DNA of 64,000 nucleotides from Nitrosovibrio sp. Nv6. GTDB lineage: Bacteria > Pseudomonadota > Gammaproteobacteria > Burkholderiales > Nitrosomonadaceae. The DNA lies in the NCBI RefSeq assembly GCF_900110495.1, contig NZ_FODX01000006.1:1-64000 (forward strand), in the 5' to 3' direction. Position numbers and translations under genes: made by a program. The notes beneath the pieces were generated by a model that saw only the letters and a program-made list of their open reading frames with translations, did no database searches and was not told where the DNA came from. Positions 50,091 to 56,450 of this stretch are shown here, piece by piece. The first letter of the stretch is position 1. Every line of letters begins with the position of its first letter.

Positions 50091-51278
50091 TTATTGGAAA
50101 ATAGTTTTGCGTAGCTCGGAAAAAGCGTTGCCCACATAGTCCATCTGTTCACTGCTGTGGGCTGCGCTAACGCTGCAACGCACCAATGAATTTCCTTCGG
50201 GCGCGGCAGGCGGTACGACCAGATTGACATAGATGCCGTGTTCAAGCAGACCCCTCCATAGCGCCAGCGCCTGCTGCGGCGTGTCAAGTATGGTTGCGAT
50301 AACGGGACTGGGCTCCGGACCAAGCCGATAGCCGAGCTTATCGAGCCGGGAATATAGTTTATGTACATTCTGCCAGAGCTGCCGGCGTAATCCGGTACCG
50401 CCCCGCAGTAACCTGAGCGCCGCCCGTGTCGATGCAATGGTAGCCGGTGTAGGCGACGCGGTGAATATATACGGGCGGCTGACATAGCGTAATTGATCAA
50501 GTTGTGGATGTTTGCTCACACAATAGCCACCGATACCGCCCAGACTTTTACTGAAAGTACCGGTGATGAAATCAACTTCGCCAACAAGTCCCGTTTCTTC
50601 CACCAGACCCTGGCCTGTCTTACCCAGCACCCCGAGGGAATGCGCTTCGTCCAGAAGAAGTGTGCTGCCGTAAGTGTCTTTTAATTTAACGACATCAGCC
50701 AGCGGCGCTCGATCGCCCAGCATGCTGTAAATGCCTTCAACAATGATGAGCGTGGAACGAGAGCGATCTCCCAAACGCCGAAGGCGCTTTTCCAGATCGA
50801 CCATATCATTATGTCTGAACCTGATAATCTCGGCGCCACTTAAGCGGCATCCATCATAAATACTTGCGTGGGAGTCGCCATCAATAAGAACAACGTCACC
50901 AGCGCCCGCCAAGCCAGAGATCGTGGCGAGATTGGCTTGATAACCGGTTGTGAATACGATGCAGGAATGGCATTGGTAAAAATCTGCAAACTCCTGCTCA
51001 AGGGCGCGGTGACCACTGTAACTGCCGTTGGCCATGCGTGATCCCGTCGTGCCTGTGCCCTCGCTATCGATCGCCGCATGGGCTGCCTGCAGGCATTCGG
51101 GCGCGAATGTGAGCCCCAGATAGTTGTTCGTACCGAGGAATAGTATGCGGCGTTCGCCAATTTTTGCCTCGGTGGAAGAATAAACTGCATCTATGGGCGT
51201 ACCAAAAACCTCAACGTCTTCAGGTAACAGGGCTTTTCGCGCCGCCGCAACGGCATCAAGCTTATCTAGCAAACTCAT
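50091..51278 (-). CDS. Alpha-oxoamine synthase, serine palmitoyltransferase-like
   Basis: A 395-residue PLP enzyme that condenses an amino acid with an acyl thioester. The PLP lysine is in GTFSKSLGGIGGY (about residue 241), and LLLDEAHSLGVLG holds the PLP-binding Asp and His. The region GTGTTGSRMANGSYSGH-ALE is of the type found in serine palmitoyltransferases rather than BioF (which has GGGGSR) or Kbl. Its direct contact with an ACP gene (next stop and start adjacent) also favours a lipid role, with serine and an acyl-ACP as inferred substrates giving 3-oxosphinganine. BioF or a CqsA-like synthase remain alternatives. Confidence 0.85.
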   Translation of the reverse strand: MSLLDKLDAVAAARKALLPEDVEVFGTPIDAVYSSTEAKIGERRILFLGTNNYLGLTFAPECLQAAHAAIDSEGTGTTGSRMANGSYSGHRALEQEFADFYQCHSCIVFTTGYQANLATISGLAGAGDVVLIDGDSHASIYDGCRLSGAEIIRFRHNDMVDLEKRLRRLGDRSRSTLIIVEGIYSMLGDRAPLADVVKLKDTYGSTLLLDEAHSLGVLGKTGQGLVEETGLVGEVDFITGTFSKSLGGIGGYCVSKHPQLDQLRYVSRPYIFTASPTPATIASTRAALRLLRGGTGLRRQLWQNVHKLYSRLDKLGYRLGPEPSPVIATILDTPQQALALWRGLLEHGIYVNLVVPPAAPEGNSLVRCSVSAAHSSEQMDYVGNAFSELRKTIFQ

Positions 51279-51530
51279 TTATTTTGCAGTTCTTATCTGA
51301 TGAATTAACGTCGCGAGCTCGTGAACAGTCTGAACATCCGCAAGCGCATTGATTGGCACGGAAATATCAAACTCATCCTCGATTTCCATGATCAAATTCA
51401 ATAACTTGACGGAGTCGATTGCAAGCTGATTAATAAGATCCGTGTCCGGTGTAATTTCTACATCAGGACCGGTAAATTGCTTGAGATGGTGGCACAGTTT
51501 CTGCAGTACATCGGTGTAATCGCTCGCCAT
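51279..51530 (-). CDS. Acyl carrier protein of the sphingolipid-like cluster
   Basis: An 83-residue ACP. The phosphopantetheine Ser is in LAIDSVKLLNLIMEIEDEF (about residue 39), a normal DS-x-x-x-L site, followed by acidic helix 2 and DVQTVHELATLI. It differs from a housekeeping AcpP in its longer N-terminus and being outside a fab operon. It abuts the oxoamine synthase gene exactly (51279/51278), so it is probably the acyl donor for that enzyme. Confidence 0.92.
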   Translation of the reverse strand: MASDYTDVLQKLCHHLKQFTGPDVEITPDTDLINQLAIDSVKLLNLIMEIEDEFDISVPINALADVQTVHELATLIHQIRTAK

Positions 51531-51572
51531 GGCTTGGTTCTGATTTGATTTGACGGGTTAAAATTATATTGC

Positions 51573-52487
51573 TTATATTGCTTCAGGCAAGGCATCACGC
51601 AGTTGAACGGAAGGTTGCCAGTTGGGAAGCGCCCGGGTCAGAGGCGTAATATCGCACACCCAGTTGGGATGGCGTAACTCCCTGACCTTCCCCGGCGTCA
51701 GCATTGGGGAATATCGCAGTAACCGGGCCAACCACAAATTAATGGTGGCGATCACCGAAACAAGTGCTCCTGGAAAGAAAATGCAATGCACAGGCCGTTG
51801 CCAGACCCCTTGTGCAATGTCCGCCACGGATTGACTATCGTAGCCCCCCGGCATTCCGTCATCGAGCTCATAAAGTCCTCGCACAGGCGTCTCGCTGGAA
51901 AGCCAGCAGATAATAGCCGTGACCAAATCATCGACGTGCAGTAAACCAAAGCGCATCGCACGCGGCCCGACCATTGGTAATATCCCGCGTTGGGTCACTC
52001 TGAAGAGGGGGCTCATTTCCTTATCGCCTGGACCATAAACCGCAGTCGGGCGAAAAACTGCACATGCCATTTTGTCCGAGCAGTCGCTCAACACCTGCTC
52101 AGCCATGCGCTTACTGGTTGCATACCAGGAAAGCTCCGGTTGTCTTGCAGCAAGGGAGGATATAAGGAGAAAACGAGGCGGCGAACTTTGCTCCATCGAG
52201 GCGCGCGCCAGATTTTCCGTACCGCCAACATTGGTATGAACGAAATCATCAAGAGAACTGCCCCGGACCTGGCCGGCGCAATGCACGACGGCAACAGTAT
52301 CTTTGACAAGTCGCCGCAATGCATCGACGTCGTCCAGATCGCCTTCGATCCATTGCGTAAACTCATCATCTACGCGTGGGCGCCTGGTCAAGGCCCTGAC
52401 CTTCCACCCTTCCTTGATCAGTGACTGTAAAAGCGCACGACCAATAAAGCCGGTGGCGCCAGTCACGGCCACCAATGACTGCGACAT
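51573..52487 (-). CDS. NAD-dependent epimerase/reductase (ceramide-reductase-like)
   Basis: A 304-residue extended SDR. The Rossmann motif VTGATGFIGRALL is at the N-terminus, VVHCAGQVRG follows, and the catalytic Tyr and Lys are in WYATSKRMAEQ; VFRPTAVYGPGD is typical of extended SDRs. In Caulobacter a gene of this family (CerR) reduces the 3-oxo group of the ceramide precursor and lies beside spt and its ACP. That role here is inferred from the cluster. It lies 42 bp before the ACP gene and 7 bp after the ligase gene. Confidence 0.88.
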   Translation of the reverse strand: MSQSLVAVTGATGFIGRALLQSLIKEGWKVRALTRRPRVDDEFTQWIEGDLDDVDALRRLVKDTVAVVHCAGQVRGSSLDDFVHTNVGGTENLARASMEQSSPPRFLLISSLAARQPELSWYATSKRMAEQVLSDCSDKMACAVFRPTAVYGPGDKEMSPLFRVTQRGILPMVGPRAMRFGLLHVDDLVTAIICWLSSETPVRGLYELDDGMPGGYDSQSVADIAQGVWQRPVHCIFFPGALVSVIATINLWLARLLRYSPMLTPGKVRELRHPNWVCDITPLTRALPNWQPSVQLRDALPEAI

Positions 52488-52494
52488 CTCCCGA

Positions 52495-54354
52495 TTATAT
52501 GTCCCCAGACTCGGCTGATAGCTGGTCTGTCAGGTTGGTTCGCTGTATGAACCCCTGGCGTGCCGCAAAACGCGATAATTTCCCGGAGGAGGTCCGAGGC
52601 AACGTATGCGGAGGAACCAATTCAACCAGGCAATTAACGCCGAACGCCATGTACACAAGCCGCTGCAATCTGCTGGTGAGAGATTGCCGATCTGTTACTG
52701 ACGTTAGGCGACATTCGATAACCAGAACAATCGTCGTAGCGTCATTAGCGTCAGTTATGCCAAAAGCGGATGCTTCCCGGGTCCTCACCTCAGGCTGCTG
52801 CTCGGCAAGTTCTTCTATATCCTGAGCGCGAATGTTCCGTCCGTTGACAATTATTACATCGGTGCGGCGGCCAGTAACATAAAGCTCGCCATCAAAAAGG
52901 AATCCCAGATCGCCCGTATCCAACCAATTGCCAGGCTGGAGCGTTTTCCGGGTATCTTCCGGATTATTAAAGTAACCCGTCATAATACTGCTACCTTGCA
53001 CCAGAACGCTGCCAACCCTTAAATCCGGCAACTCCTGCCCGGCATCATCGACCACCTTGACTGTATGTCCGGGCAAGGCGCGGCCGCAATTTACAAATTC
53101 GCTATATTTCCTGCCATCCGCCTGTAATCGAATTGCCATCTTTTTATCAACCAGGGTTCCTGCATCAACTCGCAGGCTCTGAAAACCCTGACCAACTTGA
53201 GAAAAAGTGACCGCAAGTGTCGATTCGGCCAGCCCGTAGCAGGGGAGGAAGGCCCGTGCATCAAATCCCGCAGGTGCGAATTTTTCCGCAAAATTCCTCA
53301 GGGTATCGGGTCGGATCATTTCGGCGCCGACGCCAGCGGCGCGCCAGCTGCTAAGATCAAGATCTTCCAGGTCGGAATCGCGAACCCGCAGGGTGCAGAG
53401 TTTAAGACCAAATGGCTGACTAAACGCCACAGTAGCGCGATTCCTGCTAATCAGCCGCAACCATTGAAGTGGTCTGATCGCGAAATCCCGTGTTGCCAGA
53501 TAATCAACAGAAACCTGTGCCACCATGGGGGCCATCACCATGCCAACCAGGCCCATGTCGTGATAAAACGGCAGCCAGGACGCGCAACGGTCACCCGCGT
53601 GAATTTCCAATCCATGGCGAACAATTCCCTGCAGATTGCTCATCAATGCGCGTTCTGTAATGATCACTCCGCGCGGAACACGGGTGCTCCCGGAGGTAAA
53701 TTGGAGATAGGCGATTTCATCAGGATGATTCAGCGGCAGGGTCGCATCTGGAAGCGGGAAATTACCGAGTTGCTCCGGAGTACCGACCCAGCGCAATTGC
53801 TGCGACCCCTCGGCAGCTTCTTCGAGGAAGTTAATATAATCCACATTGGCGACTGCGGCACTCGCCTGGCCGGCTTCAAGCATGCCGCGAAGCTGTTGAA
53901 CATACACCGCATGACTGCCGAGATTGACCGGGACGGGCATTGCAAAAGGAATCAGTCCCGCGAACCGGCATGCAAAAAATAATTCGACAAACTCCGGGGT
54001 GGTATCGGCAATAATTGCCACACGATCGCCACTGGTCAGACCAATGCCGAGCAGCCGTTGCGCCGAGATACGGGCATTTTGCCTTAGCGCTTGATAGGGA
54101 AGGACTGAGCGTAGATTGCCTCTGGCATCGTAAAAATTATATCCAGCAGTCCCCGCTGCCGCATATTCCAATGCAGCGGTCAAGGTTTCAAAGTCAGCCA
54201 ATCTCTGAATTTGAGTGTTATGAGTCGGTGTTGGGGTTATTGCTATCGGTGACTCGTTTAATAACCGAGGATCAAACGCTTGCGTTAGCGGAGCGTTCAA
54301 CTTCGCTATTGTTGAACTCAAGGTCTTCCCCTCCAAATTAATGGTGCTAGTCAT
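52495..54354 (-). CDS. Fatty-acyl-AMP ligase (FAAL-like) of the sphingolipid-like cluster
   Basis: A 619-residue adenylate-forming enzyme. Motifs: FTSGSTRVPRGVIITE (A3), PCYGLAESTLAVTF (A5), LDTGDLGFL (A7) and VTGRRTDVIIVNGRNIRAQDIEE (A8), where the asparagine-containing RN-type sequence is like FAALs that load acyl-AMP onto ACP instead of CoA. The N-terminal LTAALEYAAAGTAGYNFYDARG is also FAAL-like. It is the first gene of the four-gene block and probably loads the ACP. ATG at 54354 is chosen, but it lacks a clear SD; a GTG at 54492 is possible. Confidence 0.88.
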   Translation of the reverse strand: MTSTINLEGKTLSSTIAKLNAPLTQAFDPRLLNESPIAITPTPTHNTQIQRLADFETLTAALEYAAAGTAGYNFYDARGNLRSVLPYQALRQNARISAQRLLGIGLTSGDRVAIIADTTPEFVELFFACRFAGLIPFAMPVPVNLGSHAVYVQQLRGMLEAGQASAAVANVDYINFLEEAAEGSQQLRWVGTPEQLGNFPLPDATLPLNHPDEIAYLQFTSGSTRVPRGVIITERALMSNLQGIVRHGLEIHAGDRCASWLPFYHDMGLVGMVMAPMVAQVSVDYLATRDFAIRPLQWLRLISRNRATVAFSQPFGLKLCTLRVRDSDLEDLDLSSWRAAGVGAEMIRPDTLRNFAEKFAPAGFDARAFLPCYGLAESTLAVTFSQVGQGFQSLRVDAGTLVDKKMAIRLQADGRKYSEFVNCGRALPGHTVKVVDDAGQELPDLRVGSVLVQGSSIMTGYFNNPEDTRKTLQPGNWLDTGDLGFLFDGELYVTGRRTDVIIVNGRNIRAQDIEELAEQQPEVRTREASAFGITDANDATTIVLVIECRLTSVTDRQSLTSRLQRLVYMAFGVNCLVELVPPHTLPRTSSGKLSRFAARQGFIQRTNLTDQLSAESGDI

Positions 54355-54963
54355 CTTTTTGTAATGTAAAGGATTCCGATCGGAAACATTATTCTCGTTG
54401 CAATTATCCGCTGATGGCTGAATCGAGGCGCTCAGCTTGAAAATCAAATTATTAAAGCAAAAATCCCACGTACCGCCCCCTAAAACCGACACGTGTTAAT
54501 TTAATCAATTAACGAGCTCCTATTATAGCTACCTGTCGGAGCACCGCGACCTATATATACGGGGTAAAAACACCAAACACCGCCGGGCCTCCGCACGCAG
54601 ATGCCGTTTAAATAAATAATTGCAGGTTTTTCGCTCGTTTTCCAGGGCTGCAAGAGCAACAGGGTCCATTCTGTACGAGTTGGCAGCCAATATAAAGAGA
54701 TTTTGGAGAATGGAAGAGAAATGTGTAGCTTTTTTGCAACACTTGCTCGAAACCAGCGATACCAATTTTGGTCCTGCGAAGCTGACCTCAATTTATCTGG
54801 CTGCACGTGCGGCATTCTACATCAACACAAGTGCCGAATGGACGAGTAGTTTCAATCGCCAAACGAGTCCCACCCCGTAGCCAGGCGTTTTACCAAGTGT
54901 TGTTAAATGCGCCCCTATTTTGCCGCAAGGTATCGGCAACTCCGGAAACCGGAACCCAATACT
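54355..54963. other. Intergenic region upstream of the FAAL gene
   Basis: About 600 bp without a convincing gene; short frames on both strands lack motifs and SDs. On the minus strand there is a TATAAT (54522-54527) with no good -35, and an AT-rich near-palindrome TTAATT-TAATC-AATTAA (54496-54512) between it and the gene. These could be the promoter and an operator of the four-gene operon. Confidence 0.35.
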
Positions 54964-55308
54964 TCAGGCTCCAACCCATGCTTTCGCGTCCCCGTAATCA
55001 TTGAATACCCTGATGTCGGCGTCAACGAATAAATTAGACACCCACGCACTCCAGGCACGCCATTGGTTCTCGGTGATTATTGCGACCCGATTGAATTCGC
55101 TGCCGTGTTCCCGGATGAACTTGATGTCCTCCCATACGACGTCGACGGTGTAATCCACCATATCGCGCCAATCGAACAGTACGTTCAATTTGCCGTCGCC
55201 CCGCGATTTCCGGAGCACCTGCCCCTCGAATTCCTTGTAGTCAGCCAAGGTAAATTCACCGAAAACGGCAACGCTGATCAGATTATCAGTTTCCTGAATG
55301 GTAATCAT
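54964..55308 (-). CDS. SpoIIAA/STAS-like protein
   Basis: A 114-residue protein of the SpoIIAA-like (STAS/SEC14) family: MITIQETDNLISVAVFGEFT-type N-terminus, LADYKEFEG, NVLFDWRDMVDYT, and FNRVAIITENQWRAW followed by ADIRVF. Such small proteins are common and not functionally defined; a role in lipid or partner binding has been proposed for the fold. It follows the Rieske gene by 35 bp on the same strand. Confidence 0.88.
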   Translation of the reverse strand: MITIQETDNLISVAVFGEFTLADYKEFEGQVLRKSRGDGKLNVLFDWRDMVDYTVDVVWEDIKFIREHGSEFNRVAIITENQWRAWSAWVSNLFVDADIRVFNDYGDAKAWVGA

Positions 55309-55343
55309 GGTAATCCCGACAAAACGCGAATTCTACAGGCATA

Positions 55344-56450
55344 CTAATAGTCCTTGATGTGCGGTTCGATTTCCCGTCGCAAAAATTCATGGAAGTGTGC
55401 CATACCATCTTCCATCGGCGACTGATAGGGGCCGGTTTCGTTGATCCCCCGCTCAAACAGGGCCCGGCGTCCGGCGGTTATCAGCTTGCAGATTTCATCA
55501 TCCTCGACCGCGGTTTCGTGGTAGGCCGCTTGTTCTGCTTCAATAAATTCACGTTCAAACAACGCTATGTCTTCTGGATAATAAAATTCGACCACGTTTG
55601 TGCAGCGCTCTGTTCCCGCTGGAAGCACCATGCTGATAATCAATACATGAGGATACCATTCTAACATGATGTTGGGATAGTAGAGCATCCAGATCGCGCC
55701 GTGCCTTGGCGTTTTTCCCGCGGTTTGACGTAATAGTTGTTCATGCCATCTGGCGTAAACCGGCGTACCTGGTCGAGTGAGATCATTGTTTATACCTACG
55801 GTCTGTACGTTGTACCATTCTTGAAATTCCCATGCCAACCTGGTGGTATCAACGAAGTTGCCCAGCCCTGGATGATACGATTCGACGTGATAGTCTTCGA
55901 GATAAACCTCGATAAAAGTCTTCCAATTGCAAGCGTATTCTTCTATCTGAACGCATTCCAGCACATGGCCGGAAAAGTCGAAATCCTGGAGCACGCTCAA
56001 GTTCGCCAGGTCGCGTGCCACATTTCGCTTGCCTTCAAAGAGCAGGCCGTTCCAATTCTGCAATGGCGTATTGCCAAGATTGAGGCAGGGATTTTCGGAA
56101 AAATGGGGAGCACCAAGCAGTGTGCCGTGCAAATCGTATGTCCAGCGGTGTATGGGGCAAACAATGTTTCGGGTATTGCCACGGCCCTTGAGCAGCAGAG
56201 ATTGCCGGTGGCGGCAGACGTTCGACAATAGCTCAATGCCGCCTTTGTTACGCACCAGTATTTTGGCATTGCTCATCCATTCCGGCACATAATAATCACC
56301 CACCTCCGGCAGCATGATTTCATGGCCGACGTAACCGGGCCCCCGCTCAAATAAATAACGCTTTTCCAAATCGAGAATACGGGGATCGAGATACCAGTCA
56401 ATAGGCAGTTGCGTCGGCGCCAGTTGGAAAACATCAACGAGATCGGACAT
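55344..56450 (-). CDS. Rieske non-heme iron oxygenase, alpha subunit
   Basis: A 368-residue ring-hydroxylating-dioxygenase-type protein. The Rieske [2Fe-2S] ligands are in VCRHRQ and CPIHRWTYD (near residues 80-102). The catalytic domain shows the mononuclear iron site DYHVESYHPG (about residues 195-204). No reductase or beta subunit is adjacent. Similar genes lie beside xseB-ispA-dxs in other betaproteobacteria; the substrate is unknown. It is divergent from xseB. Confidence 0.9.
   Translation of the reverse strand: MSDLVDVFQLAPTQLPIDWYLDPRILDLEKRYLFERGPGYVGHEIMLPEVGDYYVPEWMSNAKILVRNKGGIELLSNVCRHRQSLLLKGRGNTRNIVCPIHRWTYDLHGTLLGAPHFSENPCLNLGNTPLQNWNGLLFEGKRNVARDLANLSVLQDFDFSGHVLECVQIEEYACNWKTFIEVYLEDYHVESYHPGLGNFVDTTRLAWEFQEWYNVQTVGINNDLTRPGTPVYARWHEQLLRQTAGKTPRHGAIWMLYYPNIMLEWYPHVLIISMVLPAGTERCTNVVEFYYPEDIALFEREFIEAEQAAYHETAVEDDEICKLITAGRRALFERGINETGPYQSPMEDGMAHFHEFLRREIEPHIKDY

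Follow-up and report, generated by a model that had tools for sequence, protein, structure and literature searches.

Four genes assigned to the bacterial ceramide pathway in Nitrosovibrio sp. Nv6, with a predicted head-group and export operon on a second contig

The 64,000-nucleotide stretch analyzed here, called the window below, comprises positions 1 to 64,000 of contig NZ_FODX01000006.1 of Nitrosovibrio sp. Nv6. Our analysis supports the assignment of four of its genes, aasR, cerR, acpR and spt, to a ceramide pathway, each with its own identity. The best explanation as a whole, to which we give a probability of about 0.92, is that they are the aasR-cerR-acpR-spt operon of the proteobacterial ("rhodobacterial") ceramide pathway and that a head-group and export operon on contig C9 of the same genome complements them. 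The features of the window cluster are:

50091..51278, minus strand: spt, serine palmitoyltransferase (SPT, an alpha-oxoamine synthase), 395 aa; identified by NF047599, PDB entry 2x8u, identity to the SPT of Escherichia coli BL21 and the tree
51279..51530, minus strand: acpR, specialised acyl carrier protein (ACP), 83 aa, predicted phosphopantetheine serine S39; PF00550
51573..52487, minus strand: cerR (epi), extended SDR, predicted 3-oxosphinganine or oxo-ceramide reductase, 304 aa; PF01370
52495..54354, minus strand: aasR, acyl-ACP synthetase of the fatty acyl-AMP ligase (FAAL) type, 619 aa from the ATG at 54354; NF006624, PDB entry 3pbk

Read 5' to 3', the FAAL-type ligase comes first, followed by the extended SDR, the ACP and the alpha-oxoamine synthase, with intergenic gaps of 7, 42 and 0 bp. 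This layout had been described in a sequence-only reading of the window, and the four open frames at 50091-54354 and their gaps were recovered here. The start of aasR is uncertain, as the gene ending at 52495 may begin at the ATG at 54354 (619 aa) or at a GTG at 54492 (665 aa). In the same gene order, the products match the Pfam families AMP-binding, Epimerase, PP-binding and Aminotran_1_2. The ligase carries the motifs TSGST and SGK, the SDR GATGFIG and YxxxK (as YATSK), and the ACP DSVK, which contains S39. The aasR product scored 870.6 bits against the NCBIfam fatty acyl-AMP ligase subfamily NF006624 (cut-off 600) and 544 bits against 3pbk, a fatty acyl-adenylate ligase. The gene order is identical to that of E. 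coli BL21(DE3) ECD_02850-02854 (yghO, aasR, epi, acpR, spt), where the gene roles are taken from the legend of Fig. 9 in PMC9386255. Identities to the BL21(DE3) proteins are 54% for SPT, 45% over 65 residues for the ACP, 46% over 306 columns for the SDR, 46% over 552 columns for the FAAL and 48% for the ceramide synthase CerS discussed below. Family models, motifs and these identities thus agree with the four identities first proposed from the sequence.

The synthase passes the NCBIfam equivalog model NF047599 "serine palmitoyltransferase" with 590.5 bits at a cut-off of 500. It remains below the cut-offs of the models for bioF (325.4 of 426.45 bits), Kbl (273.3 of 493), ALAS (235.6 of 338.55) and the CqsA-type NF005526 (213.3 of 428). 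Two further SPT models, NF047603 (432.5 of 670) and NF047600 (338.1 of 640), were not passed either. A sequence search of the PDB gave SPT 2x8u as the top match (408 bits), with other SPT entries (2jg2 and its kin) at 374-378 bits. Lower matches were Kbl (220 bits), cysteate fatty-acyltransferase 28eh (188.8) and CqsA (117.8), and entries named BioF alone reached at most 178 bits. A maximum-likelihood tree of 70 rows separated E. coli BioF, Kbl and the genome's own second, BioF-like paralog (G000:C6:43833) from 67 SPT rows with support of 100/99. The tree was built from 22 of the 45 family loci introduced below, the window's own protein and other rows, with row L178 left out and no CqsA or ALAS rows. 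The assayed SPT of E. coli BL21 falls among the SPT rows together with the window synthase. The latter belongs to a 23-row clade (100/99) of Nitrosomonadaceae rows and a few bins with other labels, adjoining the gammaproteobacterial-type bins L087, L088 and L091 (64-67% identity). A BioF, Kbl, ALAS or CqsA (autoinducer synthase) identity is therefore ruled out by the model cut-offs, and for BioF and Kbl also by the tree. Of the phylogenetic comparison foreseen in the sequence-only reading, the separation from BioF and Kbl holds, and CqsA is set aside by its model only.

The residues point the same way. N52, Y53, T77, G79, S80, H137, D210, H213, S243, K244 and R367 are constant in all 67 SPT rows. 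K244 is presumably the pyridoxal phosphate lysine, and H137, D210, H213 and R367 are residues that we take to be in the active site; all five are also present in BioF and Kbl and do not discriminate SPT. The region GTGTTGSR (residues 74-81) had been singled out from the sequence as of the SPT rather than the BioF form, and this is borne out: at the positions of T77, G79, S80 and S243, E. coli BioF has S, G, S and G, and Kbl has M, S, V and G. T77 and S243 thus distinguish SPT from both relatives, and G79 and S80 from Kbl only.

The chemistry of such enzymes is described in PMC9386255. There, the SPTs of Caulobacter crescentus, E. coli BL21 and S. wittichii form 3-oxosphinganine from L-serine and acyl-AcpR, in that the product from labelled serine co-migrates with 3-oxosphinganine. 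Acyl-AcpR is much preferred over acyl-AcpP and acyl-CoA by all three, and AasR is reported to load AcpR specifically in Caulobacter. The earlier proposal that this bacterium makes 3-oxosphinganine and a reduced derivative agrees with the gene order shared with BL21, whose SPT makes 3-oxosphinganine (PMC9386255).

Gene order was compared in 45 near spt loci, with SPT identity of at least 73%, and in 35 distant ones. All four genes occur in the same order and on the same strand in 44 of the 45 near loci, the sole miss (L084) being a contig that starts inside the SDR gene. The same holds for 28 of the 35 distant loci, from several phyla. Four of the seven distant misses are cut contigs, two show no SDR (L095 and L099) and one neither SDR nor FAAL (L105). 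Within the family Nitrosomonadaceae, spt was found in 37/37 sampled genomes at 74% identity or more, in matches without internal stops; one of these genomes (G025) has a size of 1.3 Mb. Genomes of other families gave no ortholog-level match: 21 of 24 had SPT matches of 28-36% identity and three had none. Among 300 genomes of the order, 11 of the matches listed reached E<=1e-90, nine from the family and two from family f6 at 55% identity. The genome itself carries an AmoA-family gene (PF02461, 403.9 bits; 0/14 control genomes), and its closest named genome is Nitrosovibrio sp. Nv4 (97%), in keeping with the earlier description of the organism as an ammonia oxidiser.

No ceramide synthase was found within the 64-kb window, as the sequence-only reading had noted, and the single YghO match of the whole genome lies on another contig. 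A search with BL21 YghO located this cerS at G000:C9:240638-241747 (48% identity). CerS has no Pfam match at E<=0.001 and no PDB sequence match at E<=0.01. Its AlphaFold model (mean pLDDT 86.0) matches tandem GNAT acyltransferases (5kf1, E 2.9e-15, TM 0.62 by query length). Of the two options offered earlier, a ceramide synthase elsewhere or a different product, the first is thus the one that stood. The gene is present once per genome in 37/37 family genomes and in none of the 24 from other families. SPT and CerS also go together across the phylum: of 299 genomes compared, 22 have SPT (E<=1e-100) and 26 have CerS (E<=1e-20), and every SPT genome is also a CerS genome (hypergeometric 1.3e-29).

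Downstream of cerS on C9 lie genes for a MobA/CofC-like nucleotidyltransferase ("CofC-like" follows the naming of CC_1153 in PMC11324152), LptF2, LptG2, a DAGK_cat protein and a 323-aa protein, X323. The DAGK_cat protein is a further feature of this operon:

L038:8387-9400, C9 operon: CerK, ceramide-kinase-like DAGK_cat protein

CerK is found in all 37 family genomes and in none of the 24 others. The cerS loci of 35 family genomes were fetched (G002 and G004 were left out). The nucleotidyltransferase, LptG2 and CerK occur in 35/35, LptF2 in 34/35 (not L138) and X323 in 34/35 (L162 ends before it); L154 is rearranged. Outside the family, 23 of the 35 distant loci have cerS and spt in one fetched stretch. 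In 21 of these, cerS and aasR are divergently oriented, and NTPx, LptF2, LptG2 or CerK are often nearby; in L087, L090, L091 and L093, LptF2, LptG2, CerK and X323 are also on the cerS side. In eight of the 12 distant loci without cerS, the contig ends within the four genes or directly next to them. The fetched stretches of the 45 family spt loci do not contain cerS. Since the two halves are joined in so many distant loci and in no family locus as fetched, they are most simply read from their arrangement as one ancestral cluster that was split in Nitrosomonadaceae. In Nitrosomonas sp. Nm51 (L083), aasR is preceded on its own strand, at a distance of a few kb, by CerK and the Tam41-like gene described next. 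None of the remaining 44 family loci shows this in its fetched stretch, and it is perhaps an intermediate arrangement.

X323 has no Pfam match at E<=0.001 and no PDB sequence match at E<=0.01. Its model (mean pLDDT 84.1) matches 7ecd, the cytidine diphosphate-diacylglycerol (CDP-DAG) synthase Tam41, with Z 19.6 and 2.9 A over 225 residues, and the next fold has Z 7.2. Tam41 is a mitochondrial-type CDP-DAG synthase. The Pfam family PF09139 (Tam41) matches 19/19 aligned X323 members at E<=10, with a best value of 1.4e-8. CerK and X323 share one open frame in G033 (L155:6508-8607, 699 aa) and G013 (L165:9482-11491, 669 aa), which belong to two genera, and this fusion suggests that the two act in consecutive steps. 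In Caulobacter, CC_1161 has a CDP-DAG-synthase InterPro domain, is required for CPG and might form an NDP-activated ceramide; such an activation step is contemplated in PMC11324152, where an assay is said to be still needed. X323 is very probably the counterpart of CC_1161, and we predict that it is a CTP:ceramide-1-phosphate cytidylyltransferase. The term "CDP-ceramide" was not found among the matches listed in the open-access literature on CDP-ceramide or Tam41. The Tam41-like partner of the ceramide kinase offers a direct route to testing the CDP-ceramide intermediate.

The proposed pathway builds on observed gene identities, order, co-occurrence and predicted folds; its reactions, chain lengths, head group and transport are all predictions for this organism. 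AasR would adenylate a free fatty acid and load it onto AcpR, and SPT would form 3-oxosphinganine by condensing L-serine with acyl-AcpR. N-acylation of this product would follow through CerS, whose gene is on C9, and CerR would reduce the keto group to give dihydroceramide; whether reduction comes before or after acylation is disputed in the literature. The C9 operon very likely serves to make an anionic ceramide phospholipid and to export it. CerK would convert ceramide to ceramide-1-phosphate, from which X323 with CTP would form CDP-ceramide, and a further enzyme would add a glycerate-type head group. LptF2 and LptG2 would carry the lipid towards the outer membrane.

The head group can be compared with Caulobacter, where CC_1160 and CC_1161 are tied to CPG, and CC_1159, CC_1158, CC_1153 and CC_1152 to CPG2 (PMC11324152). 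The C9 genes were paired with those of Caulobacter through their domains and order rather than by direct sequence comparison, and the CC_1159- and CC_1152-type queries came from Pseudomonas asuensis (L122 for CC_1159), assigned by domain. A CC_1159-type CDP-alcohol phosphotransferase was found at E<1e-100 in 25/37 family genomes, and in 20 of the 35 fetched cerS loci its gene lies between those of LptG2 and CerK. It was not found at this threshold in the other 12, which include the genome studied here (99.98% complete). The best matches in this genome are weak, with E 4.2e-5 over query positions 177-262 for the CC_1159 type and E 1.7e-6 over 10-82 for the CC_1152-type nucleotidyltransferase. 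With the gene roles given in PMC11324152, and with no strong homolog of either the CC_1159 or the CC_1152 type in the genome, we predict CPG but no CPG2 for this lineage, so that synthesis would stop at a single head group.

Beside the cerS operon lies a further module (G000:C9:231165-235352; L038:3166-7353, plus strand) of a Kdo-type cytidylyltransferase, an HpcH/GarL-like aldolase, a 2-hydroxyacid dehydrogenase, an SDR epimerase and a HAD phosphatase. All 37 family genomes have the aldolase, with identities of at least 74% (in two pieces in G005), and the whole looks like a family-wide CMP-activated sugar-acid module. We considered it as a substitute for the CC_1159-type enzyme and rejected this, as the HpcH gene is in all 37 genomes, also where the CC_1159 type is present, which leaves adjacency alone.

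Several points weigh against the ceramide pathway as laid out here. Serine as the SPT substrate is predicted from family membership, and no measured sphingolipid from any Nitrosomonadaceae or ammonia oxidiser was found in the open-access literature, among the titles and abstract beginnings of the matches listed. CerR is periplasmic in Caulobacter (PMC11087976). The SPT and CerS loci of this genome are on different contigs, so that their linkage is drawn through relatives, and in four of the 35 distant loci no cerS was found even though they are uncut beside aasR (L096, L102, L105, L112). The hypergeometric value for the co-occurrence of SPT and CerS in the phylum ignores shared ancestry, as 12 of the 22 SPT genomes come from one family (f82), and four of the 26 CerS genomes have no SPT at the cut-offs used. 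The genome's own X323 matches PF09139 at E 0.0018 with 18.1 bits, below the curated cut-off of 24. Lastly, the CC_1159- and CC_1152-type matches in this genome are weak, which makes the assigned head group tentative.

Among the other explanations, the cluster might make another long-chain alpha-amino ketone lipid through an SPT-like enzyme that uses another amino acid; a capnine or sulfonolipid, an alanine-derived 1-deoxy-sphingoid base or an amino-ketone for signalling would be examples. Cysteate fatty-acyltransferase (188.8 bits) and CqsA (117.8 bits) are indeed among the PDB matches of the synthase, and the predicted choice of serine follows from family membership. However, the SPT matches score far higher (408 bits), the sole curated model passed is an SPT one, and spt is accompanied in 37/37 genomes by a ceramide synthase and a ceramide-kinase-like gene, neither of which a signalling amino-ketone needs. 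We therefore regard this explanation as unlikely.

Less probable again is that the cluster was gained laterally and persists in this strain as a relic, intact but with little use. The lack of ortholog-level matches in the 24 other-family genomes, the mere two non-family genomes among the 11 matches listed in 300 genomes of the order, and the position of the SPT clade beside gammaproteobacterial bins would fit lateral gain. However, the stop-free matches throughout the family, the conserved order and the retention in the 1.3 Mb genome argue for long-term selection after an old gain. Because the FAAL, ACP and SDR families are broad, AasR, AcpR and the SDR might also serve a different pathway and lie beside spt by chance. 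We consider this the most improbable of the three, since gene order and strand are kept in 44/45 near and 28/35 distant loci from several phyla, and acyl-AcpR is favoured above both acyl-AcpP and acyl-CoA by the SPTs from three further organisms (PMC9386255).

The window cluster is a solid further example of a known pathway and not a new kind of system. The novelty implied in the sequence-only reading does not hold, as the same genes of Nitrosomonas eutropha are already covered in PMC9386255 and PMC11324152 and an NCBI SPT equivalog model exists. Like the organism studied here, N. eutropha C91 is an ammonia oxidiser with the same four genes and cerS elsewhere in the genome: the legend of Fig. 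9 in PMC9386255 gives Neut_0458 (aasR), Neut_0459 (epi), Neut_0460 (acpR), Neut_0461 (spt) and Neut_1100 (aca). PMC11324152 gives it at least 13 of the 17 counterparts of CC_1152-1168, in three regions, and states that it should form CPG and CPG2. In contrast, the present genome has no strong CC_1159- or CC_1152-type homologs. The C. crescentus region CC_1152-CC_1168 has the same five ceramide genes, a kinase, a CDP-DAG-synthase-domain protein, a CofC-like nucleotidyltransferase and a second LptF/LptG (PMC11324152), but in one region rather than on two contigs (mapped by domain and gene order). E. coli BL21(DE3) differs in that cerS (yghO) and lptFG adjoin the four-gene cluster, and a scan of nine neighbours there showed thymidylate-kinase-like and flippase-like proteins but no DAGK_cat protein. 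The same genes are found in P. asuensis (L122) and in Nitrospirota and gammaproteobacterial bins (L090, L093, L107, L114, L120) with SPT identities of 58-64%; there, the cerS and spt halves form one divergent locus, whereas they are apart in the fetched Nitrosomonadaceae loci.

Our results extend the pathway already predicted in N. eutropha in four respects. New are the presence of spt, cerS and cerK throughout the sampled family (37/37), the two fused CerK-Tam41 frames and the occurrence of the cluster in Nitrospirota bins, as well as the patchy absence of the CC_1159-type enzyme (12/37, this genome included), which from the gene content would predict a simpler head group. Nine distant loci carry Nitrospirota names (L104, L107, L108, L111, L112, L114, L116, L120, L121), one of them labelled NOB; by their names, these bins include presumed nitrite oxidisers. 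All but L108 and L112 have cerS, the nucleotidyltransferase, lptF2 and lptG2 in the spt locus, i.e., aasR, cerR, acpR and spt together with the cerS half in one locus. No paper combining Nitrospira, sphingolipid and serine palmitoyltransferase was found in the open-access literature searched.

Taken together, these observations allow a tentative suggestion, in which we place distinctly limited confidence: the family might make a CDP-ceramide-derived phospholipid with a species-variable head group (the simple form in 12/37), and, as Nitrospirota bins have the same cluster, sphingolipids might be a shared outer-membrane trait of nitrifiers. As part of this suggestion, the CDP-ceramide route would parallel that of phospholipids made via CDP-diacylglycerol, using a kinase and a Tam41-like cytidylyltransferase that are sometimes encoded in one frame. 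If the lipids are made, sphingolipids would be a family-wide trait of ammonia-oxidising Nitrosomonadaceae and candidate biomarkers. They would also be an outer-membrane trait relevant to stress and to polymyxin or detergent behaviour, by analogy with the Caulobacter phenotypes described in PMC11324152.

Upstream of aasR, at 54964-56450 of the window, lie genes for a SpoIIAA-like protein and a Rieske ring-hydroxylating oxygenase alpha subunit. Their membership in the operon is unsupported, as just 10 of the 45 family loci and none of the 35 outside loci have them close to the cluster, with some loci cut before this point.

Additionally, spt loci of the Nitrosomonadaceae type occur in bins labelled Moraxellaceae and Bacteroidetes, and a further spt locus in a bin labelled Klebsiella pneumoniae (L048, L084, L087). 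These bins are probably mislabelled or contaminated, and the Klebsiella-labelled locus groups with gammaproteobacterial bins.

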